From: Alphaproteobacteria bacterium
GTDB lineage: Bacteria; Pseudomonadota; Alphaproteobacteria; Bin95
NCBI GenBank assembly: GCA_026710105.1
Contig: JAPORR010000106.1
Location: 1-39,934 of the forward strand
DNA: 39,934 bases
Reading direction: 5' to 3'
Made by a program: the position numbers and the translations under genes. Position 1 is the first letter of the stretch, and each line of letters opens with the position of its first letter. Of the stretch, positions 3,279-17,403 are shown piece by piece. The notes below the pieces were generated by a model, which worked only from the letters and a program-made list of their open reading frames with translations, did no database searches and was not told the DNA's origin.

Positions 3279-3989
3279 TCACGCCGGCCAGAACGTCGCC
3301 GGGTCCCGCCAGCAGGCCCGGGGGTGGGTGGTGATAAAACGCGCGAGGTCACGGAAGAAGACGAAGCTCCGTGCGTCGGCGACAAGATGATGCGAGAGGA
3401 TGCCGGTCGGCTCGCTCCAGTCGACCCGCCCCAGGCGCCGGGCACGGAGATGGGTAGCAATGTCGTCCAGCGTCCCGGCTTCACCGCGGAAGCAGCGACG
3501 CGCGCGCCATGCGACCGGATCGACATGAGTATTGGTCTCGAAGGCGCTCCAGCGCGGGCGGAAGACCGAGAGACCCTGCCAGCCGGCAGCCGGCAGCCGT
3601 GCCGCCAGCACTGGGGCGATCCGGTTCCACGGCGGGACGATCACCGGCAGGAAGCGTGCGCCGTAAAGCGTCTGCAGCCGTTCGCGACCGGCTTCAAGCT
3701 CTGCCAGCATAGGTTCGCAACAGCGGTGAGGGCCAAACTCCGCCTTCTTCTCCGCCTGCCCGGCATGGTTTCGGTGCCGCCATCCGTGCTGGAGGATCGT
3801 GCCCGGCAGATCGCCATCCGCCCGGGCGGGAATGACGGCAAGCGCGAAGGGAATACCCTCAAGGGCCTCGACCAGCCGCTCCAGCGCAGATGTCCAGGCC
3901 TCTGCGTCGTCGTCGCGCCACCAGAACTCGGCCGGTTTCGCCCAGAGGTCGAGCTCGTCGGACAGCGCCTGCCACGGGTCAACAGCCAT
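3279..3989 (-). CDS. Polysaccharide-deacetylase-like (NodB-type) protein
   Basis: A 236-residue protein with the three landmarks of carbohydrate esterase family 4-like enzymes. These are an Asp motif FWWRDDDA (about residue 19), a His motif HGWRHRNHA giving the metal ligands, and PPWNRIAP, which corresponds to the R-x-P-W motif. The His motif differs from the usual H-S/T-x-x-H, so the substrate may be unusual. There is no signal peptide; the N-terminus is MAVDPWQALSDELDL, so it should be cytosolic, unlike many CE4 enzymes. The start at 3989 overlaps the stop of the upstream MurG-like gene by 11 bases; a longer open frame to 4283 lies inside that gene and is rejected. It likely deacetylates a sugar or lipid-linked precursor of the operon's glycan. 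Confidence 0.82.
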   Translation of the reverse strand: MAVDPWQALSDELDLWAKPAEFWWRDDDAEAWTSALERLVEALEGIPFALAVIPARADGDLPGTILQHGWRHRNHAGQAEKKAEFGPHRCCEPMLAELEAGRERLQTLYGARFLPVIVPPWNRIAPVLAARLPAAGWQGLSVFRPRWSAFETNTHVDPVAWRARRCFRGEAGTLDDIATHLRARRLGRVDWSEPTGILSHHLVADARSFVFFRDLARFITTHPRACWRDPATFWPA

Positions 3990-5106
3990 GAAGGCCCTGC
4001 AACAGCCGGATGGTTGTCGGGATGCCGCCCAGGTCGATGCCGGCTGCGGATAGCGGAGGGCCAGCGAGCGCCCGGTCGATCGCCGCGGCGAGGCTGTCGG
4101 GCGCCAGCTTGTCCTCGGCCACGACCTGCAGTCCCCCCCTCTCGGCCAGCGCATGAGCACGCAGCGTCTGCTCGCTTTCATGGCCACCGGCATAAGGTGC
4201 GACGACGGCACGGAGCCCAGCCGCCAGCACCTCCATGACCGTATTGTAGCCGCCTTGGGAGATCGAGAGATGCGCGCGGGCAAGCAGCGCCTGGAAGTCA
4301 GGCCGGGCCCGCTCGACGATCACACCCGAAGGCGCGGCCCGCATGAGATCGGAGAACACCACCTGCGGCAACCCTTCACCGACCAGGAACCGCCAGCGCC
4401 AGTCGCGGGCGTCCGAGAGCGGGCGGGCGGCAAGCGCGGTACGCAGCAGCAGCTCGCCCACCGCCCCACCGCCAGCGGAGACTAGGACCTCCCCCTCCCC
4501 GCCGCCGGGAGACGGTCCGGCCCGGTCTACCGTGTAGCCGGTATAGCGGACGAGCGACTCAATGCCCTCAAGGCCGGGAAAGGTCGCATCGAAGGGTACG
4601 AATGCCGGGTCCCCATGAACCAGCACCAGATCGTACCAGCGTTGCACGCGCTCCAGCATCTCCGCGATGCGCTCGGGCTTGTCGGGCTTGACCAAGATAT
4701 CACGCACCGATGAGACGATCATGCAGCCATCGGCCTTCGCCCGAACCAGCAGAGGCTCCAGCTCAAAACGCAATTGCCGCCGGCCAAAGGGGAAAAGCTC
4801 CGTCACTAGTACATCCGGCCGGGCCGCGTCATAGGCTTCGAACAGAACTGCCCGGCGTCTATCACGCCAGCCATCGTCGATGGGGCAGTCCCGTTCGTCT
4901 ACCAGTTGCTTGAAGTAGCGGTCCACGGCGCGCACCGGCGGAAGCTGTACCAGCGTCGCACCGCCAGGGTCGGCGCCGGGCAGTGGCAGACCACCCGAAG
5001 CCACGGCCGTTTCGATCCCGGCCGCGGCTGCCGCCCGCGACAGCGACAGCGTGCGCCGCAAATGGCCGATGCCGAGCAGGTGCTGAACCCAAAAGAAGAC
5101 CCTCAT
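3979..5106 (-). CDS. MurG-like (GT28 C-terminal fold) glycosyltransferase, copy 2
   Basis: A 375-residue GT-B fold glycosyltransferase. The N-terminus MRVFFWVQHLLGIGHLRR has the glycine-rich loop and GHLRR motif shared with the second MurG-like enzyme at 7935-9140. A middle segment, VSSVRDILVKPDKPER, parallels LGLRDIMDEPE there. The C-terminal nucleotide-sugar site shows VSAGGGAVGE and ISQGGYNTVMEVLAAGLRAV. The family resembles the predicted glycosyltransferases of COG4671; donor and acceptor are unknown. No membrane segment is seen. Its start overlaps the phosphatase stop by 4 bases (ATGA), so the two are translationally coupled. Confidence 0.85.
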   Translation of the reverse strand: MRVFFWVQHLLGIGHLRRTLSLSRAAAAAGIETAVASGGLPLPGADPGGATLVQLPPVRAVDRYFKQLVDERDCPIDDGWRDRRRAVLFEAYDAARPDVLVTELFPFGRRQLRFELEPLLVRAKADGCMIVSSVRDILVKPDKPERIAEMLERVQRWYDLVLVHGDPAFVPFDATFPGLEGIESLVRYTGYTVDRAGPSPGGGEGEVLVSAGGGAVGELLLRTALAARPLSDARDWRWRFLVGEGLPQVVFSDLMRAAPSGVIVERARPDFQALLARAHLSISQGGYNTVMEVLAAGLRAVVAPYAGGHESEQTLRAHALAERGGLQVVAEDKLAPDSLAAAIDRALAGPPLSAAGIDLGGIPTTIRLLQGLHGC

Positions 5107-5690
5107 CGAAAGGCCTGCACATCAAGGCTGCGAAGCCGCAGCCGGCCTTCGGCTTGGATTTCGAATAGATGCGCCGCCGGCGAGGAAAGCGCACATGGCG
5201 GGCGCTCCCGCATGTCCCATCCGGCCGCGGCGGCGTAAAGCGCGCGCAGCACGCCGCGATGCGCGACCACAACCATCGGCCGGCGGCCACGCGCGATCCC
5301 CGCAAGCCAGGGAGCGAGGCGGCGCTGGACCATGCGCGGGCTTTCCCCGCCTGGCGGCCTGAAATCAAGCCCGCGCGCCTCGTTCGCCGCCATGATGGGG
5401 CCGAGTTCGACACGTAGCTCCGCAAGCCGCCGACCTTCCCAGCCGCCCCAGTCCATCTCAATCAGCGCCGACGCGCAAGGGACTGCGCCGCCGGCCAGAA
5501 TGGCCGCCGTGCGCCGTGCGCGAGCGAGTGGACTCGCCGCCCAGTCGAAGGCGGAGAACGCCGGCGGCAGCTTCCAGCCCGCGACCGTCGCCACGCCTTC
5601 AGCGTCCAGAGGGATGTCGCGGCGCCCTTGCAAGCGGCGTTCACGGTTCCAGGGCGTGGGCCCATGGCGGATGACGGCCAACAGGGTCAC
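5103..5690 (-). CDS. Histidine phosphatase superfamily (phosphoglycerate-mutase-like) protein
   Basis: 195 residues. The catalytic motif is VIRHGPTPWNRERRLQG, with the phospho-accepting His in RHG. SPLARARRTAAIL supplies the second Arg, the acid region is IEMDWGGWEGR, and VAHRGVLRAL holds the second catalytic His. This is the full branch-1 histidine phosphatase set. GTG 5690 is the start, overlapping the upstream glycosyltransferase stop as GTGA; a longer open frame to 6026 is rejected because it runs through that gene. Within a glycosyltransferase operon it could dephosphorylate a sugar-phosphate or lipid-phosphate intermediate, but that is inference. Confidence 0.88.
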   Translation of the reverse strand: MTLLAVIRHGPTPWNRERRLQGRRDIPLDAEGVATVAGWKLPPAFSAFDWAASPLARARRTAAILAGGAVPCASALIEMDWGGWEGRRLAELRVELGPIMAANEARGLDFRPPGGESPRMVQRRLAPWLAGIARGRRPMVVVAHRGVLRALYAAAAGWDMRERPPCALSSPAAHLFEIQAEGRLRLRSLDVQAFR

Positions 5691-6733
5691 GCCAGTACCG
5701 CCGCGGCTTGCGTGATGTCGTGGCGTGCCAGCACGCGCGCTCGGGCCGCCCGGCCCATCGCGCGCCGGCGGGCGGGGTCTGTCAGCAGAGCGCGCAGGCA
5801 ACCGGCGAAGGCACCCACATCGCCCGGCACCGCCAGCAGCCCGGTTTCGCCATGCGCCACCACCGCCGGCACACCGTCGGTCGCCGCCGCCACGACCGGA
5901 AGGCCAGCGGCCGCGGCCTCTAGCATGGCCATGCCGATGGCCTCGCGCTCCGCCGGCCAGACGAAGAGATCCGCACTTGCCAGAATCGCCGGCAGCTCCG
6001 CCTCGTTCCGCTGGCCAAGCCAGCAAATACGCCGCCCGCCCGGCAGCGCCGCCTGCACCTGCGCGCGCGCCGGGCCGTCGCCGACCACGAGCAGCCGCCA
6101 GGGCAAGTCGTCCAGCGCCGCCAGAGCCCTGCCCAGACGGCGGTAGGAGGCGAGCTTCGCACCTTCGCGCATCATTGCGACCGTCACCAGCAAAGGCGGT
6201 TCGCCCCGGCCAACCCCGGCCCGCCAGGCGGAGGCATCCAGGAACGGCGCCAGGTCGATGAGGCGGTCCGGCGCGGCCAGCGGCGCGAGACAGGCGCGAT
6301 CATTGGGGTTAAGGCAAAACAGCCGGTCGGCGCGGGCAATGGCGTCGACGACGGCCCGGTGCCCGATGTCCCACGGGCCGCCGGCGCGCTTCGGGGCATG
6401 GGAGGCTTCCGCTACCCAGTAGGCCGCCCCGCGCACCCCCGCCAGCCGGGGCCCTAGCCAGTCCGGCGCCTTGTAGTAGAGGTGATAGGTAAACCAAGCG
6501 TCGAAGGCTGGTAAGCGTGCCTCCAGGCGAGTGGCAAGCCTGCCACCGAGCGCCTGTAGGCGCTGTTGGCGGCTAGTATCGCCCCACTTGTCGAGCGAGC
6601 GGAAACGCGCAGCGAGGAAGGGGTCGTGTCCAGCGGCCTGAAGCGCACGCAGGAAGAGCCGCGCAATGCCCCTTTCGCCCGAGGGCACGGGATGGTCGGG
6701 CGGCTTCAGCGGCGCATAGAACGCAATGCGCAT
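5687..6733 (-). CDS. Glycosyltransferase family 4 (GT-B)
   Basis: 348 residues. The N-terminus is MRIAFYAPLKPPDHPVPSGE, a GT4-like first strand and loop. The C-terminal donor-binding half contains LLVVGDGPARAQVQ, ICWLGQRNEAELPAILASAD and the signature WPAEREAIGMAMLEAAAAGL, where the E-x7-E motif is visible. HGETGLLAVPGD follows. No transmembrane segment is seen, so it is cytosolic or peripheral. It overlaps the upstream GT4 gene by 28 bases and the downstream phosphatase by 4. The sugar donor cannot be read from sequence. Confidence 0.9.
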   Translation of the reverse strand: MRIAFYAPLKPPDHPVPSGERGIARLFLRALQAAGHDPFLAARFRSLDKWGDTSRQQRLQALGGRLATRLEARLPAFDAWFTYHLYYKAPDWLGPRLAGVRGAAYWVAEASHAPKRAGGPWDIGHRAVVDAIARADRLFCLNPNDRACLAPLAAPDRLIDLAPFLDASAWRAGVGRGEPPLLVTVAMMREGAKLASYRRLGRALAALDDLPWRLLVVGDGPARAQVQAALPGGRRICWLGQRNEAELPAILASADLFVWPAEREAIGMAMLEAAAAGLPVVAAATDGVPAVVAHGETGLLAVPGDVGAFAGCLRALLTDPARRRAMGRAARARVLARHDITQAAAVLA

Positions 6734-7938
6734 GGAGCCGGCCCGAAGCGTGCGGCAAGACGGTCGATACCGGCCTCGAAGGAAAAGGCCGTGCGGACAC
6801 GCGCGCAGGCCGCCCGGCCCATGGCGGCCCTCTCCGCCGGATTGCGGATGAGCGTCGCGAGCGCCGCCGCGAGCGCCTGCGGGTCCTCCGGTTCCACAAG
6901 CAGGCCGGTTTCGCCAGGGCTCACGAATTCGGGCACGGCTGAGACCCGCGTCGAAACGGCGGGCAGGCCCTGCGAGGCCGCCTCCATCAGCACATTGGGC
7001 AGGCCGTCGCGGTCGCCATCGGGGGCGATCCGGCAGGCAAGCGCGAACAGGTCGGCCTGGCGTAATTCTTCCACCACCCTGTCCTGCGGCTGCGCTCCGA
7101 GGAAGACCGCTGGCAGGTCGGCCGCCGCCTGCTTCAGCCGCCCAGCGAGCTTGCCGCCGCCGATATGCACGAAGCGCCAGTGCAGCTCCGGCGGCAAGAG
7201 GCGTAGCGCGGCGAGCAGGACATCATAGCCCTTCTTTTCCACCGCGCGCCCGACCGATGCGATGACCACGGGCCGCGCCGGGTCGCTGCCGTCATGCGCC
7301 CCGCGCTCCGGCGGCGGCGGGAAACGGCCCAGATCGAGGCCGTGATAGACAAGCGTCACCCTTTCCGGCTGAGGCGTGAGAGATGCCAGATGCTCCGCGC
7401 CAGCGGCCGTGCAGGTCACAAGCCATTCGCATGCGGCGAGCTTTTCGCGCGTCTCCCATTGGGGGGTGGTCCAAATGTCCTTGGCATGTGCCGAACAGGA
7501 CCAGGGCAGGCCGGTCATCAGGCTCGCATAGCGGGCGACCGAGGCGGGCGTGTGGAGGAAATGGACATGGAAGCGCGTGACGTCGTCTGGCAATTCAGCC
7601 ACCAGCACCGCAGCCTGGGCGAAGCGTCGCGCCCGGTTCAACGTCGGGTCGCGCCGCCAGTCCCGCAGCCAGACAGCGCGCGCGGCCCTGTAACCAGGCA
7701 GGCGCCGCGCCAGCCGCCAGCCACGCCAGACCCGCCGCGGCTCCTCATGCACATATTCCGGCAGATAGTGGACCGGGGCGGCAATCTGTTCATGCATCGC
7801 ATGGCGGGTCGGATCGGTCGGGTGGCGCAGCGAGATGATGCGCTGGGCTACACCGCGTTCCTCCAGGCCCAGGATTTCCTGCGCGATGAAGGTCTCCGAG
7901 AGGCGCGGATAGCCCTTGACGATGACCGCGACGGTCAA
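6706..7938 (-). CDS. Glycosyltransferase family 4 (colanic-acid/exopolysaccharide type)
   Basis: 410 residues. MTVAVIVKGYPRLSETFIA is the N-terminus typical of exopolysaccharide GT4 enzymes ('YPRLSETFI'). The central FHVHFLHTPASVARYAS is followed by SAHAKDIW. The donor half has ASVGRAVEKKGYDVLLAALR, then DGDRDGLPNVLMEAASQGLP with the E-x7-E region, then SPGETGLLVEPEDP. The start overlaps the upstream MurG-like gene by 4 bases (ATGA). This places it in the core of the operon, probably adding one sugar of an exopolysaccharide or glycolipid. Confidence 0.92.
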   Translation of the reverse strand: MTVAVIVKGYPRLSETFIAQEILGLEERGVAQRIISLRHPTDPTRHAMHEQIAAPVHYLPEYVHEEPRRVWRGWRLARRLPGYRAARAVWLRDWRRDPTLNRARRFAQAAVLVAELPDDVTRFHVHFLHTPASVARYASLMTGLPWSCSAHAKDIWTTPQWETREKLAACEWLVTCTAAGAEHLASLTPQPERVTLVYHGLDLGRFPPPPERGAHDGSDPARPVVIASVGRAVEKKGYDVLLAALRLLPPELHWRFVHIGGGKLAGRLKQAAADLPAVFLGAQPQDRVVEELRQADLFALACRIAPDGDRDGLPNVLMEAASQGLPAVSTRVSAVPEFVSPGETGLLVEPEDPQALAAALATLIRNPAERAAMGRAACARVRTAFSFEAGIDRLAARFGPAPCALRSMRR

Positions 7939-9140
7939 GGCTGGACGAGCCTGAGCGGCGCGCCAGCCGGCCGCTCCAACGCCCGGTCCGCCAGCCGCGC
8001 AATGCTTTCCACGCCGTCCAGCAGCCCCGGCACGACCACCTCGGATGGTCGGTTCTGCTGGGCGAGGCCGCGAATGGCGCTCGCCATGGCACGAGTGTCA
8101 GCGAGGTAGTCAGGGTCGAGCATGCGCACGAGGCCAAGGTCCTGCGCCCGCTCGGCGCGGATGCGCTGCTCCAGCCGGGGCCGGGTACGCGGCACGACCA
8201 CGGCCGGCTTGTCGAAGGAGAGGATCTCGCAAAAGGTGTTGTAGCCGCCCATGGCCATCACGCCAGCAGCGCGCTCCATCAGGGATTCCAGATGCGCATC
8301 GAACACGATCGTCGAGACCTGTGGCAGCGCCGCTGCCCGTCGGCGGAACTCTGCTTGGCGCTCCGACGGCATGAAAGGCCCGAACACCAGCACCGCCCGC
8401 CAGGGCATCGGTCCGGCATGCTCGTAGGCGCGCAGCACCCAGTCGATCAGATCATCGCCATCGCCGCCACCGCCGGCCGTCACCAGCACGAATGGCGCCT
8501 CCGCCGCGCGTTCCGCCTCCGGGGAAAGCGGTGCATCGGGCACGCCGCGAGGTAGGTATCCTGTGAACACCGCCTTGCGCTGCACCTGTTCCGACAGGCC
8601 TAGCCCCTCCAGCGGGTTGCAGATCTGCGGCAGGCCGTAGATCCAGATCTCGTCATAGAGCCGGGAGAGCGCCGGGGCAACTTTCTTGCGTTCCCATTCC
8701 GGCGCCAGCATTTCCGGCTCATCCATGATGTCCCGTAAGCCGAGGATAAGGCGCGCGCCGCGCTTGCGCAGGATGTCCAGCGTTTCCGACACCTCGCCGC
8801 GCAAGCCGAGTGGCTCCTTGTCGACGAGAAAGAGGTCAGGATCGAAGATCTCCGCCGTGTGGCGGATGATTGAGGCGCGCATCGCCAGCGTCTCTTCCGG
8901 CGCCATGTTCAAGTTAAGCGGCGTGTAGTCGCCGTTGCGCAGCTTTATCATGCCCGGCACACGCACGAAATCGACACGCATGCGGAAGTCAAAGCTGCCG
9001 ATAATCGGCGAGCCGGAGAGGATCAGCACCGACAGATCGCGGCGCCGGCCAACCAGCGCATGCGCGATCGTTCGGCAGCGGCGCAGATGGCCGAGCCCGA
9101 AGCTGTCATGGCTGTATATAAGGATGCGCTTGCCTCGCAT
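7935..9140 (-). CDS. MurG-like (COG4671-type) glycosyltransferase, copy 1
   Basis: 401 residues from the ATG at 9140; the frame is open to 9203 but MRGKRILIYSHDSFGLGHLR is the natural N-terminus. GLGHLRRCRTIAHALV is the glycine-rich GT28-like loop. The middle has LFLVDKEPLGLRGEV and LILGLRDIMDEPEML. The C-terminal donor site has VLVTAGGGGDGDDL and AMGGYNTFCEILSFDKPAVV. It is the first gene of the minus-strand operon and a paralogue of 3979-5106. Its start lies 162 bases from the divergent ABC-like gene, so the two units may share a control region. Confidence 0.88.
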   Translation of the reverse strand: MRGKRILIYSHDSFGLGHLRRCRTIAHALVGRRRDLSVLILSGSPIIGSFDFRMRVDFVRVPGMIKLRNGDYTPLNLNMAPEETLAMRASIIRHTAEIFDPDLFLVDKEPLGLRGEVSETLDILRKRGARLILGLRDIMDEPEMLAPEWERKKVAPALSRLYDEIWIYGLPQICNPLEGLGLSEQVQRKAVFTGYLPRGVPDAPLSPEAERAAEAPFVLVTAGGGGDGDDLIDWVLRAYEHAGPMPWRAVLVFGPFMPSERQAEFRRRAAALPQVSTIVFDAHLESLMERAAGVMAMGGYNTFCEILSFDKPAVVVPRTRPRLEQRIRAERAQDLGLVRMLDPDYLADTRAMASAIRGLAQQNRPSEVVVPGLLDGVESIARLADRALERPAGAPLRLVQP

Positions 9141-9302
9141 GGCGCCGACTATCGCATATCTTCCGCTCGGCGGGAAAGCACGCAACCAGCTGCTGCTCGG
9201 CATGTACTGCCGCCCTGCATGCCATGCCCCGATGCGGGACTTTCAATTGCACCAAATGGGCTCATGATGTGGGACTCGGTCAAGGTGCAGGGGCCAGCCG
9301 GC

Positions 9303-11951
9303 ATGGAAAAGACGATCTACGGCTTCGTGTTCCGCCATAGCCTGCCGCAGCAAGTCATCCTGCTTGCGTTGACGATCGCGTCTTTCCCGGTGCTCTACGC
9401 GTCGCTCGAACTGCCCAAGCGGATCATTAACGACGCCATCGCCGGCGAGGACTTCCCCCGGTCCGTGTTGGGGCTGGAGTTCGGCCAGATCGAATATCTG
9501 ATGGTACTGAGCGCCGCCTTCCTGGTGCTCGTACTCGTGAACGGTGCCTTCAAATTCGTCATCAACACCGGCAAGGGCCGGCTCGGCGAACGCCTGCTGC
9601 GACGCCTGCGCTACCAGCTCTATTCGCGCCTACTGCGATTCCCACTACCGGTCTTCAAGCGCATGGGCCAAGGCGAAATCATCCCGATGGTGACGCAGGA
9701 AGTGGAGCCTCTCGGGGGGTTCATGGGCGATGCGCTTGCGCAGCCGGCCTACCAGTTAGGCATACTGGTCACCATCGGCGCCTTCATGCTTGTGCAGGAG
9801 CCAATCCTGGGCCTTGCCGCGCTCGCGCTCTATCCCTTCCAGATGTACATGATCCCGAAGCTCCAGCGCCGCGTCACCGCGCTGGGGAAAGAGCGGGTAC
9901 TGCATGTCCGGCGGCTGTCGGAACGGATCGGCGAATCGATCTCGGGCATGGAGGCCGTCCACGCCGATGACGGCAGCAACCGCTTCCGCGCCGATATCGC
10001 ACAGCGCCTGGGCGGCATATATGACATCCGTTACGAAATTTTCCGGCGCAAGTTCTTCATCAAATTCCTTAATAATTTCCTGGCGCAGCTCACGCCCTTC
10101 TTCTTCTACGCCATCGGCGGCTACCTGATTATCGAGGGCAGCCTGAGCTTCGGTGCCATGGTCGCCGTGCTGGCGGCCTACAAGGACATGTCCGCGCCCT
10201 GGAAGGAGCTGCTGGCCTATTACCAGCAGCAGGCCGACTCGCGCATCAAATACGAACAGGTTGTCCAGCAGTTCGACCCACCCGGCATGATCGAGGAGCG
10301 GCTGCAGGTGGAAGAGCAGGAGGCCCTGCCGACGCCCGGACCCGGAAGCCAGATCGGCTTCGAGAACGCCGTCTACGCGGAGGATGAAATTTCCCAACCC
10401 GTGCGCGGCGCGACCTTTTCCCTCGGACTCGACGAGCATGTCGCCATTGTCGGCCCGAGCGGGGGCGGCAAGGAAGAGCTCGGCCTGCTCGCGGCCCGGC
10501 TCGCAGTGGTCACAGGCGGGCGGGCACATCTCGACGGCACCGCGCTCGCCGACCTGCCCCAGGCGGCATTCGGGCGTCATGCGGCCTATGTCGGGCCAAG
10601 CGCCAGCCTGTTCAATGCGAGCGTGCGCGAAAACCTGCTCTTCGGCCTGCGCCACCGGCCGCTCCGCCCCGCCCCGGCCACGCCCGGAAACGCGTCCCGC
10701 CACAAGGCCCGCCTGGCTGAGGCTCGGCGGACCGGCAACAGCGACGCCGATCTCAACGCCGATTGGGTGGATTACGAGGCCGCCGGCGCAGCGCCGGGCG
10801 AAGAAATGATGCAGCGCATGGCGGCGGTACTCGCCGCCGTCGGGCTTGATGACGACCTCTATGTGCTCGGCCTGCGCGGCGTGGTGGACCCGGACGCCCA
10901 TCCTGGCCTGGCCGAGCGTGTGCTGGAGGCGCGCGCGGCGCTCCGTTCCCGGCTCGATGCGCCGGGCGCGGCCGCGCCCGTCGAGCCCTTCGATGCGGAT
11001 GCCTACAATGTCAACGCCACGCTCGCGGAGAACCTGCTATTCGGCGCGCCCATCGGGCCCGCCTTTGCCCAGGAGAACCTCGCAGGTCATGCCTTCGTGC
11101 GCCACGTGCTGGCGGAAGCCGGCCTGCTGGAGCGGCTGGAAAGCATCGGCCTCCAAGTGGCGAAGATCATGGTGGAGCTGTTCGCGGATATCGACCCCGG
11201 CCATGAGCTGGTGGAACAGTTCAGTTTCATCGATGCGGACGACCTGCCCGACTTCCGTGCCATCGCCGCGCGGGCCGACCGGCTGGGGCTTGAGGGGCTG
11301 GAGGCGGAGGAGCGCCAGCGCCTGCTCGGCCTGCCCTTCCTGCTGATTCCGGAACGCCACCGCCTCGGGCTGATCGACGACGATATCCGTCGCAGCCTGC
11401 TCACGGCCCGGCACCTGTTCCGCGAGCGCCTGCCGGAGGAAGAACGCGGTTCGGTCGAATTCTTCGACACCGGACGCTACACCGCGCGCGCGAGCCTGCA
11501 GGACAACATCCTCTTCGGGCGCATCCGCCACGGGCAGGCGCATGGCGCGGACCGAATGAGCACGCTGCTCTCGGAGGTGATCGACGAGGTGGGCATACGC
11601 AGCGCGGTGATGGAGGCGGGGCTCGAGTTCGATGTCGGCATTGGCGGCAGTCGGCTGACGCAGACCCAGCGCCAGAAGCTCTCCTTTGCCCGCGCGCTGC
11701 TGAAACGCCCGGCGCTGCTGGTGGTCAACATGGCGACGGGCGGCGTCGAGCGTGCCGCGCGCGAGGCACTGTTCGCGGCCACGCGGCAGGAGATGGCCGG
11801 GCGCGGCCTCCTGTGGGTGCTGGAAGCCCCGGAGCTTGCGGTAGGCTTCTCCCGCATCCTCGTCGTCGAGGAGGGACGTGTCGCCGAGGACGGCGCCTTC
11901 GAGGCGCTGAGGACCGCCGGTGGCCCCTTCGCCCAGCTCTTGCAATCGTAA
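9303..11951 (+). CDS. ABC-exporter-like membrane protein with degenerate ATPase domain and large insertion
   Basis: About 882 residues. The first 330 or so form a type-I exporter-like membrane domain with hydrophobic stretches such as VILLALTIASFPVLYASLEL, YLMVLSAAFLVLVLVNGAF and LTPFFFYAIGGYLII. A nucleotide-binding-like domain follows, but its catalytic landmarks are altered. Walker A is GPSGGGKEE (384-392, K390 kept, Ser/Thr replaced by Glu). The Q-loop Gln appears as Pro in YVGPSASLFNAS. The signature is LTQTQ (785-789) instead of LSGGQ. Walker B ends VVNMAT (N809, M810 instead of D-E), and no switch His is seen in WVLEAPELA. About 330 residues separate the Q-loop region from the signature, where under 100 is usual. 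ENLLFG/DNILFG motifs occur three times (443, 576, 734). ATG 9303 is preferred because AGGGG precedes it; ATGs at 9264 and 9267 are alternatives. Confidence 0.88.
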   Translation: MEKTIYGFVFRHSLPQQVILLALTIASFPVLYASLELPKRIINDAIAGEDFPRSVLGLEFGQIEYLMVLSAAFLVLVLVNGAFKFVINTGKGRLGERLLRRLRYQLYSRLLRFPLPVFKRMGQGEIIPMVTQEVEPLGGFMGDALAQPAYQLGILVTIGAFMLVQEPILGLAALALYPFQMYMIPKLQRRVTALGKERVLHVRRLSERIGESISGMEAVHADDGSNRFRADIAQRLGGIYDIRYEIFRRKFFIKFLNNFLAQLTPFFFYAIGGYLIIEGSLSFGAMVAVLAAYKDMSAPWKELLAYYQQQADSRIKYEQVVQQFDPPGMIEERLQVEEQEALPTPGPGSQIGFENAVYAEDEISQPVRGATFSLGLDEHVAIVGPSGGGKEELGLLAARLAVVTGGRAHLDGTALADLPQAAFGRHAAYVGPSASLFNASVRENLLFGLRHRPLRPAPATPGNASRHKARLAEARRTGNSDADLNADWVDYEAAGAAPGEEMMQRMAAVLAAVGLDDDLYVLGLRGVVDPDAHPGLAERVLEARAALRSRLDAPGAAAPVEPFDADAYNVNATLAENLLFGAPIGPAFAQENLAGHAFVRHVLAEAGLLERLESIGLQVAKIMVELFADIDPGHELVEQFSFIDADDLPDFRAIAARADRLGLEGLEAEERQRLLGLPFLLIPERHRLGLIDDDIRRSLLTARHLFRERLPEEERGSVEFFDTGRYTARASLQDNILFGRIRHGQAHGADRMSTLLSEVIDEVGIRSAVMEAGLEFDVGIGGSRLTQTQRQKLSFARALLKRPALLVVNMATGGVERAAREALFAATRQEMAGRGLLWVLEAPELAVGFSRILVVEEGRVAEDGAFEALRTAGGPFAQLLQS

Positions 11952-11957
11952 AGGAGG
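11951..11957 (+). promoter_or_regulatory. Strong Shine-Dalgarno that fixes a TTG start
   Basis: AAGGAGG lies directly on the stop codon of the ABC-like gene, 8 bases before TTG 11966. It is the best ribosome-binding site in this part of the window. It decides the start of the cyclic-nucleotide-binding protein, which has no in-frame ATG nearby. Confidence 0.8.
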
Positions 11958-11965
11958 ACCCAGTC

Positions 11966-12424
11966 TTGGCGCTAAATGAAGAAGTCGAGGCCCTGAGGGC
12001 GATCCCGCTGTTCCAGCGCATCGAGGCATCGAAGCTGAGACTGCTCGCCTTCACGAGCGAGCGGGTGCGCTTCGAGCCGGGCGATCTCGTGGTGAAAGAA
12101 GGCGACATCGGTGACGCCGCCTATATCGTGCTGGAAGGCGCGGCGGAGGTGCTGGTAGACGCGCCCCACGGCCCACTCAAAGTGGCCGATATCAGCAAGA
12201 ATGACATCGTCGGCGAGATCGCGATCCTGATCGACGTGCCGCGCACGGCCACGGTGCGCGCGACCGAAGCCGTGACGGCACTCCGCATTTCGAAGGAGTT
12301 GTTCTTCCGACTGGTGGCGGAGTTCCCTCAAATGGCGGTGGAGATCATGCGCGAGCTCGCCCAGCGCCTGGACAGGACGACGGCCGACCTCCGCGAGGCG
12401 CGCGCGCAGCGCGCCGGCGGGTAA
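11966..12424 (+). CDS. Stand-alone cyclic-nucleotide-binding (CRP-like) domain protein
   Basis: 152 residues from TTG 11966, consisting of one cNMP-binding beta-roll. FEPGDLVVKEGDIGDAAYIV and LEGAAEVLVD form the roll. The phosphate-binding cassette is DIVGEIAILIDVPRTATVRA, with the Glu and Arg that contact ribose and phosphate in CRP-type domains. The protein ends with a helix rich in charged residues (ELAQRLDRTTADLREARAQR), and there is no DNA-binding helix-turn-helix. It is therefore not a transcription factor by itself and more likely acts on a partner protein. It sits 14 bases after the ABC-like stop and 7 before the methyltransferase-like gene. The natural guess is that it binds the ABC-like protein and confers cAMP/cGMP control. 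Confidence 0.9.
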   Translation: MALNEEVEALRAIPLFQRIEASKLRLLAFTSERVRFEPGDLVVKEGDIGDAAYIVLEGAAEVLVDAPHGPLKVADISKNDIVGEIAILIDVPRTATVRATEAVTALRISKELFFRLVAEFPQMAVEIMRELAQRLDRTTADLREARAQRAGG

Positions 12425-12431
12425 GCGGCGA

Positions 12432-12929
12432 ATGTCGCGGCTGGACAGCGCGATCCGCCGTCTCATAGCGCAGCGCGCCTGTCTCGACCGAGCAGCACAC
12501 CTTGTGCACCGCCTGCCGGGTCCGGTTCTGGAGCTCGGCCTCGGCAATGGACGCAGCTACGACCATCTCCGCACCCGCCTGGCCGGCCGCGATATCTTTG
12601 TGTTTGAGCGGACGCTGGCTGCTCATCCAGACTGCATACCGCCTGCGGACCGCCTTATTATGGGCGATTTCCTGGAGACCCTACCCCATATCCACCTGCC
12701 GGCCCCAGCAGCGTTCATCCACGCCGATATCGGCACAGGCGACAAGGCCGCCTCGCTGGCGCTCGCCGCCGCGCTCGCCCCCCTCCTACCGCCCCTCGCC
12801 GCCCCCGGCGCCGTCCTCGCCAGCGACCAGCCACTGCCACTGCCCGGCTGGACCGAGGAACCGCTACCGCCAGGCGTCGCCCCAGGCCGCTACCGGCTGT
12901 ATCGGCACCCGGAGGAGCAGGGAAGCTGA
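12432..12929 (+). CDS. Small class I SAM-dependent methyltransferase-like protein
   Basis: 165 residues. The SAM-binding motif I is PGPVLELGLGNGRSYDHLR (E/D-x-G-x-G-x-G form). An acidic strand end, IFVFERTLAAHPD, could hold the ribose contact. RLIMGDFLETLPHI and AFIHADIGTG resemble motifs II to IV. It is shorter than most class I enzymes (over 200 residues) and its C-terminus is simple, so activity and substrate are uncertain. It begins 7 bases after the cNMP-domain gene, the third gene of the divergent operon. Confidence 0.78.
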   Translation: MSRLDSAIRRLIAQRACLDRAAHLVHRLPGPVLELGLGNGRSYDHLRTRLAGRDIFVFERTLAAHPDCIPPADRLIMGDFLETLPHIHLPAPAAFIHADIGTGDKAASLALAAALAPLLPPLAAPGAVLASDQPLPLPGWTEEPLPPGVAPGRYRLYRHPEEQGS

Positions 12930-14152: not shown

Positions 14153-14757
14153 GATCCTGCGGCATGCGGCGCGGCACTGTGGTGGTCATGCTGCGCGAGG
14201 CGAAATGCGGCGCAGTCAAGACGCGGCTCGCCGCCGCCATCGGGCCGGCACGTGCCACCGCCTTTTACCGACGCGTGGCGGCCGAGCAATTGCGCCGACT
14301 AGCAGCAGACCGGCGCTGGCAGGTCATGCTGGCGGTAACCCCGGACGGCGCGCGCAGCCCCTGGCCCCGCCGGCTCAGCCGGTTCGGGCAGGGGCACGGC
14401 GATCTCGGCCAGCGCATGGACCGGGCGCTTGCTCGCGCGCCCATGCCTACCCTGCTGGTCGGCAGCGATATCCCTAGCCTCCGGCCGCGCCATATCGCAC
14501 GCGCCTTCCGCCGACTCTGCGCGGCCCGCGCAGTGTTCGGCCCGGCGGAAGATGGCGGCTTCTGGCTCGTCGGCGCAAGGCAGCGCATGCGGCTCTTCGC
14601 GGGCCCGGTGCGCTGGTCGCATCCTCAAACGCTCGCCGACGCATTGGCGCAACTACCCTTTCCAGCCGCGCTCGCCGACCGGCTGGCAGATATTGACGAC
14701 GGCGCGGCCTGGAACACCTATACTCGCCGCCCATGTGTAACACGATCCCTCCCATAG
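14149..14757 (+). CDS. DUF2064/TIGR04282-type glycosyltransferase
   Basis: 202 residues. GTVVVMLREAKCGAVKTRLA is the nucleotidyl/glycosyl-transferase-like start with the K-T-R-L motif. GDLGQRMDRAL, LLVGSDIPSLRPRHI (the D-x-P metal site) and GPAEDGGFWLVG follow, as in DUF2064 proteins. The natural start is ATG 14149, overlapping the preceding gene by 4 bases; the open frame extends to 13852 inside that gene. It is almost always paired with a TIGR04283 partner, as here. The enzyme is soluble and its substrate is unknown. Confidence 0.88.
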   Translation: MRSCGMRRGTVVVMLREAKCGAVKTRLAAAIGPARATAFYRRVAAEQLRRLAADRRWQVMLAVTPDGARSPWPRRLSRFGQGHGDLGQRMDRALARAPMPTLLVGSDIPSLRPRHIARAFRRLCAARAVFGPAEDGGFWLVGARQRMRLFAGPVRWSHPQTLADALAQLPFPAALADRLADIDDGAAWNTYTRRPCVTRSLP

Positions 14758-14809
14758 GCGGCCGCATAGGCAGCTGTGATCCAGACCGCCCGATCGCTGA
14801 GGTGGCGGC

Positions 14810-16117
14810 GTGAAAACCTCCGATCCTGCCGCCGTGCTCTGGCGAGCAACGGCCCCGGCGGCGGCGGCGACACCGGCGCTCGACGGCCCATGCGAGGCCG
14901 ATGTCTGCATCATCGGCGGCGGTTTCACTGGACTTTCCACCGCTCTGCATCTGGCCGAGGGCGGCGCGCGCGCCGTGCTGCTGGAAGCCGGGGATCCAGG
15001 CTTTGGTGCGTCGGGGCGCAATCACGGGCAAGTGGTGCCGATGCTCTCGCGCTATGGGCCGGAGGACACGGTCGCGCGGTTTGGCTACGAGGCGGGTGAG
15101 CGGTTCAACCGCTTCATTGCCGAGTCGGCGAAGCTGGTCTTTGAACTGATCGACCGTCTCGGCATAGAGTGTGACGCGCGACCGGTCGGCTGGCTGCTGC
15201 CGGTGGACAGCCCAGCCCGCGACGGCATGGTGCGGGCGCGCGCCGACGCCTGGGCCGCGCGCGGCATGCCGGTCCGCTATCTGGAGAGGGCTGAGACCGA
15301 AGCCATGACCGGCAGCCGCTACTGGCAAGGCGCGCTTCATCACGCCTGGGGCGGCAATATCCAGCCGCTCGCTTATGCGCGCGGCCTTGCGAAAGCGGCC
15401 CTCGACGCCGGGGCAATGGTCCATGCACATTCGCCCGCAACCGCGCTGGCGCAGACAGGCCAGCGCTGGCATGTGAAGACGCCAGGCGGCGCGGTGACAG
15501 CGGATCAGGTCGTGCTGGCGACCAATGGCTATACCGGCCGGCTCTGGCCGGGACTCGGGCGAGCGATCGTACCGTTCCGGCTGTTCCTCGCCGCGACGGC
15601 GCCACAGGGCGGCAATGTGCGCCGGCATATCCTGCCTGGCGACATGAGCGTCTCGGACAGCCGCACGCTGCTCTGGCCCTTTCGCTGGGATCGGGAGGGC
15701 CGCATGGTGACGGGCGGCGACATCGTACTGCCCTGGCGGGCACGGGGCCGGGCCGAAACCGTGGCGCGGCGGCGCCTGCAGGCTGCCTTCCCGGAGCTTG
15801 GCGATGCCCGCTTCGAATTCGTCTGGGATGGCAAGGTGGCAATGACCTTGGACCGCTTGCCACGCGCGATGGAGCTCGGGCCTGGCGTCTGGACGGCGCT
15901 CGGTTACAACGGCCGTGGCGTCGCCTTGGCAACCGCGATGGGCCGCCTCCTGGCCAGGCGTTGCCTCGAAGGGCTGAAGGCCGACGATCCCGTGCCGGCG
16001 GCGCTGCGCCAGCCACACCCCGTGCCGTTCAACCGCCTCGCCGTGCCGGTCGCCCGCGCCATGCTGCTGCGCTACCGCCAGCAGGACGCGAAGGCGGCCC
16101 GCAGCCGGGCGGCCTGA
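14810..16117 (+). CDS. FAD-dependent amine oxidoreductase (DAO family, PuuB-like)
   Basis: 435 residues. The FAD dinucleotide-binding motif is DVCIIGGGFTGLSTALHLAE (about residue 31), followed by VLLEAGDPGFGASGRNHG; the ASGRNHG segment is typical of gamma-glutamylputrescine-oxidase-like enzymes. The middle VVLATNGYTGRLWPGLGRA and the C-terminal GYNGRGVALATAMGRLLA close the fold. It probably oxidises an amine or amino acid derivative in the cytosol. It precedes an MFS transporter by 35 bases and a thioesterase by GTGA overlap, suggesting uptake plus catabolism of one compound. Confidence 0.9.
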   Translation: MKTSDPAAVLWRATAPAAAATPALDGPCEADVCIIGGGFTGLSTALHLAEGGARAVLLEAGDPGFGASGRNHGQVVPMLSRYGPEDTVARFGYEAGERFNRFIAESAKLVFELIDRLGIECDARPVGWLLPVDSPARDGMVRARADAWAARGMPVRYLERAETEAMTGSRYWQGALHHAWGGNIQPLAYARGLAKAALDAGAMVHAHSPATALAQTGQRWHVKTPGGAVTADQVVLATNGYTGRLWPGLGRAIVPFRLFLAATAPQGGNVRRHILPGDMSVSDSRTLLWPFRWDREGRMVTGGDIVLPWRARGRAETVARRRLQAAFPELGDARFEFVWDGKVAMTLDRLPRAMELGPGVWTALGYNGRGVALATAMGRLLARRCLEGLKADDPVPAALRQPHPVPFNRLAVPVARAMLLRYRQQDAKAARSRAA

Positions 16118-16152
16118 GGCACGGGAACGGAAACCGACGACTCCGGGACAGC

Positions 16153-17403
16153 ATGACGGGCAGCGCATCCTGGTATCCTGTCATTCGGGCGGCGGCGGCT
16201 TTCCTTATCATGGTCGTCGGCACGGCCGGCATGTTCGCCGGCACGGTCGCTCTCAAACCGATGCAGGAAGCATTCGATATTTCGCGGGGCGCGGCGACGC
16301 TCCCTTATATGGCGTTCATGGTCGGGTTCGGCCTCGGCAGCTTCTGGATGGGCCGGGTCGCCGACCGGCTGGGCGCCATGCGCATCACTGTCGCCGGCGG
16401 CCTGACCCTCGGCCTTGGCTTCTGGATCGCCGGGCACGCCGACGAGCCCTGGCAGGCGATTCTCGCCCACGGGCTACCGATCGGCCTGATGGGCGCTTCG
16501 ACCACCATGGCGCCAATGGTTGCGGATGTGTCGCTTTGGTTCGAGCGGCGGCGGGGCCTTGCGGTCGCCGTAGTCATTAGCGGAGCCTATGTGTCCGGCA
16601 TGGTCTGGCCACCGGTGCTGGAAGCGCTGACGGACGCCTATGGCTGGCGCGATATGTATCTCGCTCTGGGCGCGCTGACCTTCCTCGCACTGCCACTACT
16701 GGCGCTCGTGCTGCGCCGTCCGGCACCCCGTACCGTGCTGACGGGGCCGCTGGAGGCGGCCGGATCGGCCCGACCGCTCGGGATGCGGGCACCGGTACTG
16801 CAAGCGCTGCTCTGCTGCGCGGGGCTTGGCTGCTGCATCGCGATGGCCGCGCCGCAGGTGCATGCGGTCGCCATGGCAGACGATATCGGCCTCCGGCCGG
16901 CTGATGGCGCGTTGATGTTATCGCTGATGTACGGCTTCGGCATTGTGAGCCGGCTCGGCTCCGGCTGGATATCGGACCGCATCGGTGGATTGCGCACGCT
17001 CACCCTCGGCTCGGCCGGGCAGGCGGTGGCACTGCTGTTGTTCCTGCCGGCAGACGGGCGCCTCACGCTTCTGGTCGTCGCCGCACTGTTCGGCCTCTCG
17101 CAGGGCGGTATCGTGCCGTCCTATGCCATCATCATCCGAGAGTATTTCCCGGCTCGGCAGGCGGGCGGGCGCATCGGCATGGCGCTGCTGTTCACCATGC
17201 TCGGGATGGCCATTGGCGCCTGGCTCGCCGGTGCGATCCACGATCTTACCGGCAGCTACCGGGTCGCCTTTGCCGGCGCGGTGGCGGTCAATATCGGCCA
17301 TCTGGGGCTCGCCGCATTCCTGCTGCAGCGGGCGGCGGCCCAGCGCAGAATGCAGGCCCGGTCGTTCGATGTCGAACGCTGTTCCTCGGGTGATCTCCGG
17401 TGA
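16153..17403 (+). CDS. MFS transporter
   Basis: 416 residues with about twelve hydrophobic segments. The first is AAAAFLIMVVGTAGMFAGTV. The MFS loop 2-3 motif is GRVADRLGAMR. A later GSGWISDRIGGLRTL is its duplicate in the second half. Start ATG 16153 is chosen; the frame is open to 15961, but that stretch overlaps the oxidoreductase gene. The family resembles oxalate/monocarboxylate-type MFS proteins in length. Substrate is unknown; the neighbour suggests an amine or organic acid. Confidence 0.88.
   Translation: MTGSASWYPVIRAAAAFLIMVVGTAGMFAGTVALKPMQEAFDISRGAATLPYMAFMVGFGLGSFWMGRVADRLGAMRITVAGGLTLGLGFWIAGHADEPWQAILAHGLPIGLMGASTTMAPMVADVSLWFERRRGLAVAVVISGAYVSGMVWPPVLEALTDAYGWRDMYLALGALTFLALPLLALVLRRPAPRTVLTGPLEAAGSARPLGMRAPVLQALLCCAGLGCCIAMAAPQVHAVAMADDIGLRPADGALMLSLMYGFGIVSRLGSGWISDRIGGLRTLTLGSAGQAVALLLFLPADGRLTLLVVAALFGLSQGGIVPSYAIIIREYFPARQAGGRIGMALLFTMLGMAIGAWLAGAIHDLTGSYRVAFAGAVAVNIGHLGLAAFLLQRAAAQRRMQARSFDVERCSSGDLR

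Follow-up and report, generated by a model that had tools for sequence, protein, structure and literature searches.

Genes and features of the locus

The window (the whole stretch of DNA that was analyzed, 39,934 nucleotides of contig JAPORR010000106.1) contains at 9303-11951 (+) an open reading frame of 882 aa without a break, as the preliminary description of this DNA had stated. A second in-frame ATG lies upstream, at 9060. Since a start there would overlap the divergent gene, and since the homologues begin with MEKTIYGF, which corresponds to 9303, we placed the start at 9303. The features of the protein and of its neighbors are listed in Table 1.

Table 1. Features of the locus, with positions in the window. 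Fractions in the last column give the number of diverse loci, out of 24 with long flanks, in which the neighbor recurs.
Feature	Position	Strand	Evidence
Putative pseudo-ATPase, ABC-exporter-like protein, 882 aa	9303..11951	+	ORF, Pfam, structure model, family motif counts
Transmembrane domain, residues 1-330, type IV ABC exporter fold	9303..10292	+	PF00664, model, conservation
Altered Walker A, GPSGGGK-E391	10452..10475	+	Motif alignment
Putative helical-subdomain copy 1, residues 424-552: Q-loop with P432, ENLLFG 443-448, last-helix R544	10572..10958	+	
Putative helical-subdomain copy 2, residues 556-710: ENLLFG 576-581, last-helix R703	10968..11432	+	
Helical-subdomain copy 3, native, residues 713-802: DNILFG 734-739, LTQTQ 785-789, R797	11439..11708	+	
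Degenerate Walker B, LLVVN809-M810	11715..11732	+	Motif alignment
Switch-His position, occupied by Glu841	11823..11825	+	Motif alignment; His in 15/71 members
AGGAGG ribosome-binding site, immediately 3' of the stop codon and 5' of the CNBD gene	11952..11957	+	Sequence
Stand-alone CNBD protein, about 152 aa from TTG, no HTH, cassette GEIAILIDVPRTATVRA	11966..12424	+	PF00027 5e-19
Methyltransf_17 protein, third gene of apparent operon	12432..12929	+	PF12692 1.4e-50; 8/24
GT28-C-type glycosyltransferase, divergent neighbor	7935..9203	-	15/24
GT4 glycosyltransferase	6706..7938	-	14/24
GT4 glycosyltransferase	5687..6733	-	10/24
Histidine phosphatase, true start uncertain, ORF open to 6026	5103..5686	-	PF00300 8e-35; 10/24
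GT28-C (MurG-like) glycosyltransferase	3979..5106	-	14/24

Pfam recognized the ABC membrane domain (PF00664, residues 40-291, 9.7e-25) and a broken ABC_tran match (PF00005, residues 369-510, 2.3e-9). None of the named NCBIfam exporter families (MsbA, CydD, HlyB, and others) scored above its curated cut-off, the best reaching 135.5 bits against 602, and no curated family model covering the 882-aa protein was found. The full model, predicted as a monomer like all our structure predictions, has a mean pLDDT of 83 and six long helices in the membrane domain. It aligned with many exporters at Z of 27-29 and, once an insertion is skipped, covers complete nucleotide-binding domains (NBDs), namely 239/239 residues of ComA at 2.0 Å and 247/251 of TAP1 at 2.2 Å. 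With a membrane domain of six-helix fold followed by an NBD, the protein is a homologue of the ABC exporter superfamily (type IV fold) and, judged by its motifs, not an ATP-driven exporter. A phage origin was rejected, as a phage collection gave no full-length match.

Hallmarks of ATP hydrolysis are lost throughout the family

Apart from the Gly and Lys residues of the P-loop, all catalytic landmarks of the 882-aa protein are changed (Table 1), with P432 at the Q-loop position and LTQTQ (785-789) at that of the signature. These substitutions, together with GPSGGGK-E391 and N809-M810, had been quoted correctly in the preliminary description, as had the absence of the switch His, where E841 stands. 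Two ordinary exporters encoded in the same genome carry canonical GxxGxGKT, Q, LSGGQR, DE, and H in a motif scan.

We then counted the motifs in 71 non-redundant family members (<95% identity). The Walker A Lys is present in 50/71 and the following Ser/Thr in 18/71, while the P-loop Gly residues are kept in 63-66 of the 71. The Q-loop Gln is found in eight members, the switch His in 15, the signature Ser in 39 and its first Gly in eight, the Walker B Asp in 23, and the catalytic Glu in 39. When seven hallmarks of an ATP-driven pump were scored (Lys; Ser/Thr; Gln; Ser plus a Gly; Asp; Glu; His), no member had them all: the maximum was four, 13 members scored none, and the 882-aa protein retains one.

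The pattern of loss varies among lineages. Thalassospira members retain GKS and DE and have lost the other hallmarks, Rhizobium/Sinorhizobium-type members have also lost the P-loop Lys (Ala or Gly instead), and some other members have A, G, or R at the K390 position. Within the genus of the window protein, N809-M810, LTQTQ, P432, and E841 are fixed (5/5 species on the tree). The membrane-domain tree implies repeated changes of single hallmarks (Walker B Asp 8, switch His 9, Walker A Lys 8). Since different hallmarks were lost in different lineages and no member is canonical, the degeneration is a property of the family and not a single-gene defect. The preliminary description had named homologues with canonical residues as evidence against its reading; single hallmarks, such as the Walker B D/E, occur in some members, and a fully canonical set in none. 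Because the Lys is kept in 50/71 and Thalassospira has GKS plus D-E, ATP binding may persist, as may some hydrolysis in part of the family.

Selection was assessed by comparison with five close relatives, which align without gaps at 81-86% identity. Overall dN/dS is about 0.20-0.25, with 0.14-0.23 in the membrane domain and 0.21-0.30 in the insertion. The P-loop half of the NBD has the lowest values (0.11-0.16), and the half that carries the signature, Walker B, and switch has the highest (0.27-0.52), so that the catalytic half of the NBD is the least constrained region. The protein is thus under purifying selection and maintained, in agreement with the original suggestion, which rested on the intact frame and clean codon use. 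The further proposal that the protein is a maintained relative of ATP-driven pumps, and not such a pump itself, is well supported at the sequence level by the family-wide decay and purifying selection. Overall, a maintained pseudo-ATPase is a highly probable reading of the motif record.

The insertion resembles two additional helical subdomains

An insertion lies between the Q-loop and the signature in all 71 members. Its presence had been recognized before; its size is about 300 residues, not the ~250 first proposed. The distance from Asn444 to Arg797 is 353 residues, compared with 53 in one canonical exporter measured alike. The length of the insertion (residues 487-770) is 284 in 52/71 members and 280-287 in all but one.

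Three copies of ENLLFG, at 443, 576, and 734, had been described as a triplicated motif. The first two read as claimed and the third reads DNILFG; the repetition is real, and the repeated unit appears to be a whole helical subdomain and not one motif. A unit, as we define it, begins at the Q-loop exit (ENLLFG) and ends with the last helix ahead of the next strand. Compared as profiles, the units scored 40.5 (1-2), 39.6 (1-3), and 79.8 (2-3), while 150 shuffles of the columns for each comparison reached no more than 24.7. The Asn of ENLLFG (444, 577, 735) and the Arg of the closing helix (544, 703, 797), of which Arg797 is the normal signature-helix Arg, are invariant in all three units in 71/71 members. 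The spacing between these two residues is 62 in unit 3 (53 in the one canonical exporter measured) and is expanded to about 100 and 126 in units 1 and 2.

Predicted alone, the insertion reached a pLDDT of 89.5. Foldseek found no match to the isolated model at E under 0.9, and comparison of the insertion profile with solved proteins gave nothing beyond two chance-level matches. A slower structure aligner returned almost only ABC exporters, with residues 564-709 matched to their segment from the Q-loop to the signature helix, for example, MsbA 426-498 and ABCC3 698-769 (28% identity over 72 residues). Most of these matches have an rmsd of 2.4-3 Å and Z of 3 to 4.5, which is weak alone and agrees with the sequence profiles; given the low Z, we count them only jointly with the profile evidence. 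Taken together, the profile scores, the invariant Asn and Arg residues, and the aligner matches indicate that the insertion is best read as two additional tandem copies of the ABC helical subdomain, from Q-loop exit to signature helix. A foreign domain was considered and rejected, as there was no solved-protein or Foldseek match and the units resemble the ABC helical subdomain. No DNA-level tandem repeat of such size was found behind the three motifs, and the duplication is therefore old.

A cyclic-nucleotide-binding protein is the likely partner

The stop codon of the 882-aa protein is separated by 14 nt, with a strong Shine-Dalgarno sequence, from a gene for a cyclic-nucleotide-binding domain (CNBD). 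We rejected the possibility that it encodes a CRP/FNR transcription regulator: it lacks an HTH, matches PF00027 only, and ends shortly past the CNBD. A CNBD accompanies 70/71 family members, as a C-terminal fusion in 20 and as a separate gene directly downstream in 50; one member has none. The fused forms trace to a single change on the membrane-domain tree. Similarly, among the 24 diverse loci, the CNBD gene is present in 22 and fused in two more.

The canonical phosphate-binding cassette (GE..., PR.A) includes a phosphate-binding Arg (PMC2246266). The CNBD in the window has this cassette, as have most of those in the family, the Glu and Arg being present in nearly all family CNBDs (exceptions include L070 and L123). 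The Thalassospira cassette, GEIALLVDAPRSATIRA, has the Arg as well. The genome of the window also encodes two class III cyclases. Fusion and near-universal adjacency provide strong sequence evidence that the CNBD and the membrane protein form one functional unit, and the CNBD is very likely the functional partner of the membrane protein. From fusion and operon order, the two would form a complex. The earlier suggestion of a scaffold, sensor, or channel-like relative was plausible and unspecific; the partner in the adjacent gene points to cyclic-nucleotide control.

In Thalassospira, two genes precede the CNBD-fused form throughout the genus (L020:4069-5879), one for an ion channel of the voltage-gated type and one for a protein with a metallo-beta-lactamase fold that resembles Apyc1, an enzyme degrading cyclic nucleotides.

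Glycosyltransferases are frequent neighbors (Table 1), forming a cluster in 15 of the 24 diverse loci and including three near the Rhizobium gene, which suggests that the substrate is glycan-linked in many, though not all, lineages. None occurs near the gene in Thalassospira, and they are missing in several other lineages, which leaves the substrate uncertain. In Azospirillum (L125:8001-15948) and Rhizobium (L121:1-6931), an ABC importer with a large substrate-binding protein and two permeases lies near the gene besides glycosyltransferases. Elsewhere in the window, at 14474-16168 (-), a 564-aa open frame without a Pfam or NCBIfam match overlaps the start of an MFS gene (15961-17403, +) and other frames, and may be a shadow ORF.

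Distribution of the family and its NBD-less relatives

Scanning named genome contigs revealed 37 related loci, from Alphaproteobacteria MAGs, many Thalassospira, and one Granulosicoccaceae contig; further loci came from related genomes. The insertion profile was detected in 98/289 sampled Alphaproteobacteria genomes (72/223 genera), and all 31 hits in a phylum sample of 398 fell in Alphaproteobacteria. No ordinary exporter comes near this membrane domain in similarity: they score about 75 bits or less, compared with 468-1923 for full-length family members. Plasmid-borne members occur in Rhizobium, Sinorhizobium (pSymB), Azospirillum, Ruegeria, and others, where "ABC transporter ATP-binding protein" or a like name is the usual annotation. 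The contig binned as Granulosicoccaceae (Gammaproteobacteria; L045) has a member of 40% identity that is truncated where the contig ends, which reflects horizontal transfer or misbinning. In the open-licence literature, we found no description of the family or of the CNBD-ABC combination in rhizobia.

Relatives consisting of the membrane domain only were also found. Three genomes (L072-L074) encode such proteins of about 315 aa, and a further one occurs in Roseobacter copper islands (Phaeobacter, Pseudosulfitobacter); on the tree, these relatives, which may be either ancestral or derived, form long branches. A pirin gene lies beside the stand-alone relative on the same strand in two of the three genomes (L072:7455-8354, L073:2732-3610), and the L074 context differs. 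The Phaeobacter/Pseudosulfitobacter relative (L124:6797-8266, L126:6773-8077) is plasmid-borne, about 40% identical to residues 1-324, and has an extra N-terminal hydrophobic stretch; its copper-resistance island includes TolC, copper oxidase, and azurin genes. Within the family, the membrane domain is the best conserved region (mean column conservation 0.66), and its helices contain many invariant polar residues. This conservation and the existence of NBD-less relatives favor a membrane-domain function independent of ATP hydrolysis.

A proposed mechanism and its alternatives

These observations suggest that the protein is probably switched by a signaling molecule and not driven by ATP. The genome of the window has only one family copy, which favors a homodimer, and since all hydrolysis landmarks are degenerate, the sequence predicts that such a homodimer would have no competent ATP site. 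In the mechanism we propose, two copies would form this homodimer, in which the NBD layer, enlarged by the extra helical subdomains, would link the coupling helices to the CNBD and act as a rigid platform for transmission. When the CNBD binds cAMP, cGMP, or a similar ligand, this platform would shift, upon which the membrane domain would open, close, or flip. It could then conduct or flip a substrate that the linked glycosyltransferases make or modify, either passively or with an ion gradient as the driving force. Support is good for the pseudo-ATPase status and for the CNBD link; we infer the gating, the ligand, and the substrate. For the mechanism as a whole, a transport or flipping unit that is controlled by a cyclic nucleotide, does not depend on ATP hydrolysis, and has this protein as its membrane subunit, we consider the chances about even. 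More tentatively, the family may represent a class of ABC-exporter-fold proteins in which cyclic-nucleotide control has replaced ATP control, acting as a CNBD-gated, ATP-independent channel, scramblase, or flippase, with the triplicated helical subdomain of the pseudo-ATPase NBD as the relay.

A rather unlikely alternative is that the protein transports nothing and is a scaffold or sensor, which tethers partners, glycosyltransferases or others, to the membrane and passes the cyclic-nucleotide state on to them. The three helical subdomains would provide added protein-protein surface for such a role, and the conserved glycosyltransferase genes and degenerate ATPase are in line with it. However, conservation is highest in the membrane domain, with its many invariant polar helix residues, and not in the cytosolic part; membrane-domain-only relatives are kept in other contexts; and several lineages have no glycosyltransferases.

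Alternatively, the protein could be the degenerate half of a heterodimeric, ATP-driven ABC exporter, as in TAP1/TAP2 and TmrAB, with a CNBD that is only regulatory. In known heterodimeric exporters, the degenerate half still contributes residues to the competent site. In this family, however, the signature and the P-loop have both decayed, with K390 replaced by A, G, or R in other members. The genome does have canonical half-exporters, a competent half could be encoded elsewhere, and degenerate halves are common among type IV exporters (reviewed in PMC7756269). Nevertheless, the canonical half usually shares an operon with the degenerate one, the recurrent neighbors of family loci include no ABC half-transporter partner, and ordinary exporters show only the low similarity to this membrane domain reported above. 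We therefore regard this explanation as unlikely.

It is quite improbable that the protein is an unorthodox active ATPase, an ordinary exporter with unusual residues in which Glu391 and the altered Walker B allow slow hydrolysis. The low dN/dS of the P-loop half, the widely kept P-loop Gly and Lys, and the GKS and DE of Thalassospira speak for activity, whereas the fixation of N809-M810, LTQTQ, P432, and E841 across the genus (five species on the tree) and the loss of even the P-loop Lys in other members speak against it. Finally, loss of motifs by itself would fit a decaying pseudogene or an assembly error, which has practically no chance of being correct given dN/dS of about 0.2, frames that are intact in all species, and the conserved insertion length and six invariant repeat residues.

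Significance and comparison with known systems

Large membrane proteins labeled "ABC transporter ATP-binding protein" in Rhizobium, Sinorhizobium, and many other Alphaproteobacteria are thus apparently no ATPases. With its partly canonical members, fully lost P-loops, and NBD-less relatives, the family provides natural intermediates that bear on how an exporter fold can work without ATP hydrolysis, a question shared with CFTR and SbmA. It is also a candidate effector that would respond to cyclic nucleotides directly and not through transcription. If the proposal is true, it is in effect a bacterial cyclic-nucleotide-gated ABC protein, widespread in Alphaproteobacteria, and as S. meliloti carries a family member, it is testable in a tractable organism.

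The type IV half-transporters MsbA, TM287/288, and TAP1 share with this family the membrane fold, the NBD position, and a complete NBD core. Unlike them, the family has degenerate hydrolysis landmarks, ~300 extra residues, and a CNBD partner. CFTR retains one competent ATP site. It is ATP-gated, whereas this family is predicted to have no competent site and has a CNBD instead. Like the protein proposed here, CFTR (ABCC7) is an ABC exporter relative with a gated, non-pumping function and a degenerate site (PMC7756269). SbmA/BacA, of the SLiPT family, has the ABC-exporter membrane fold and is ATP-free and proton-driven (PMC13316013). Compared by fold description, SLiPT proteins such as SbmA, which are marked by a glutamate ladder and proton coupling, are without any NBD, while the 882-aa protein has one, and in its family the NBD is retained, enlarged, and conserved.

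Fusions of a CNBD to an ABC exporter are shared with HetC-type exporters. HetC of Nostoc is a CNBD-containing peptidase ABC exporter whose CNBD binds ppGpp in vitro (PMC10986499). It has an N-terminal CNBD, a C39 peptidase, and an essential ATPase residue, in contrast to the C-terminal or separate CNBD and degenerate ATPase of this family. CNB domains with an ABC-transporter-like membrane region are already known as CNB family 16 of Kannan et al. 2007 (PMC2246266), though without the features found here. The cassettes differ: the Arg is variable in CNB family 16 (GEMALLSGQERKASVIA) and is retained in the present family (GEIAILCDVPRTATV).
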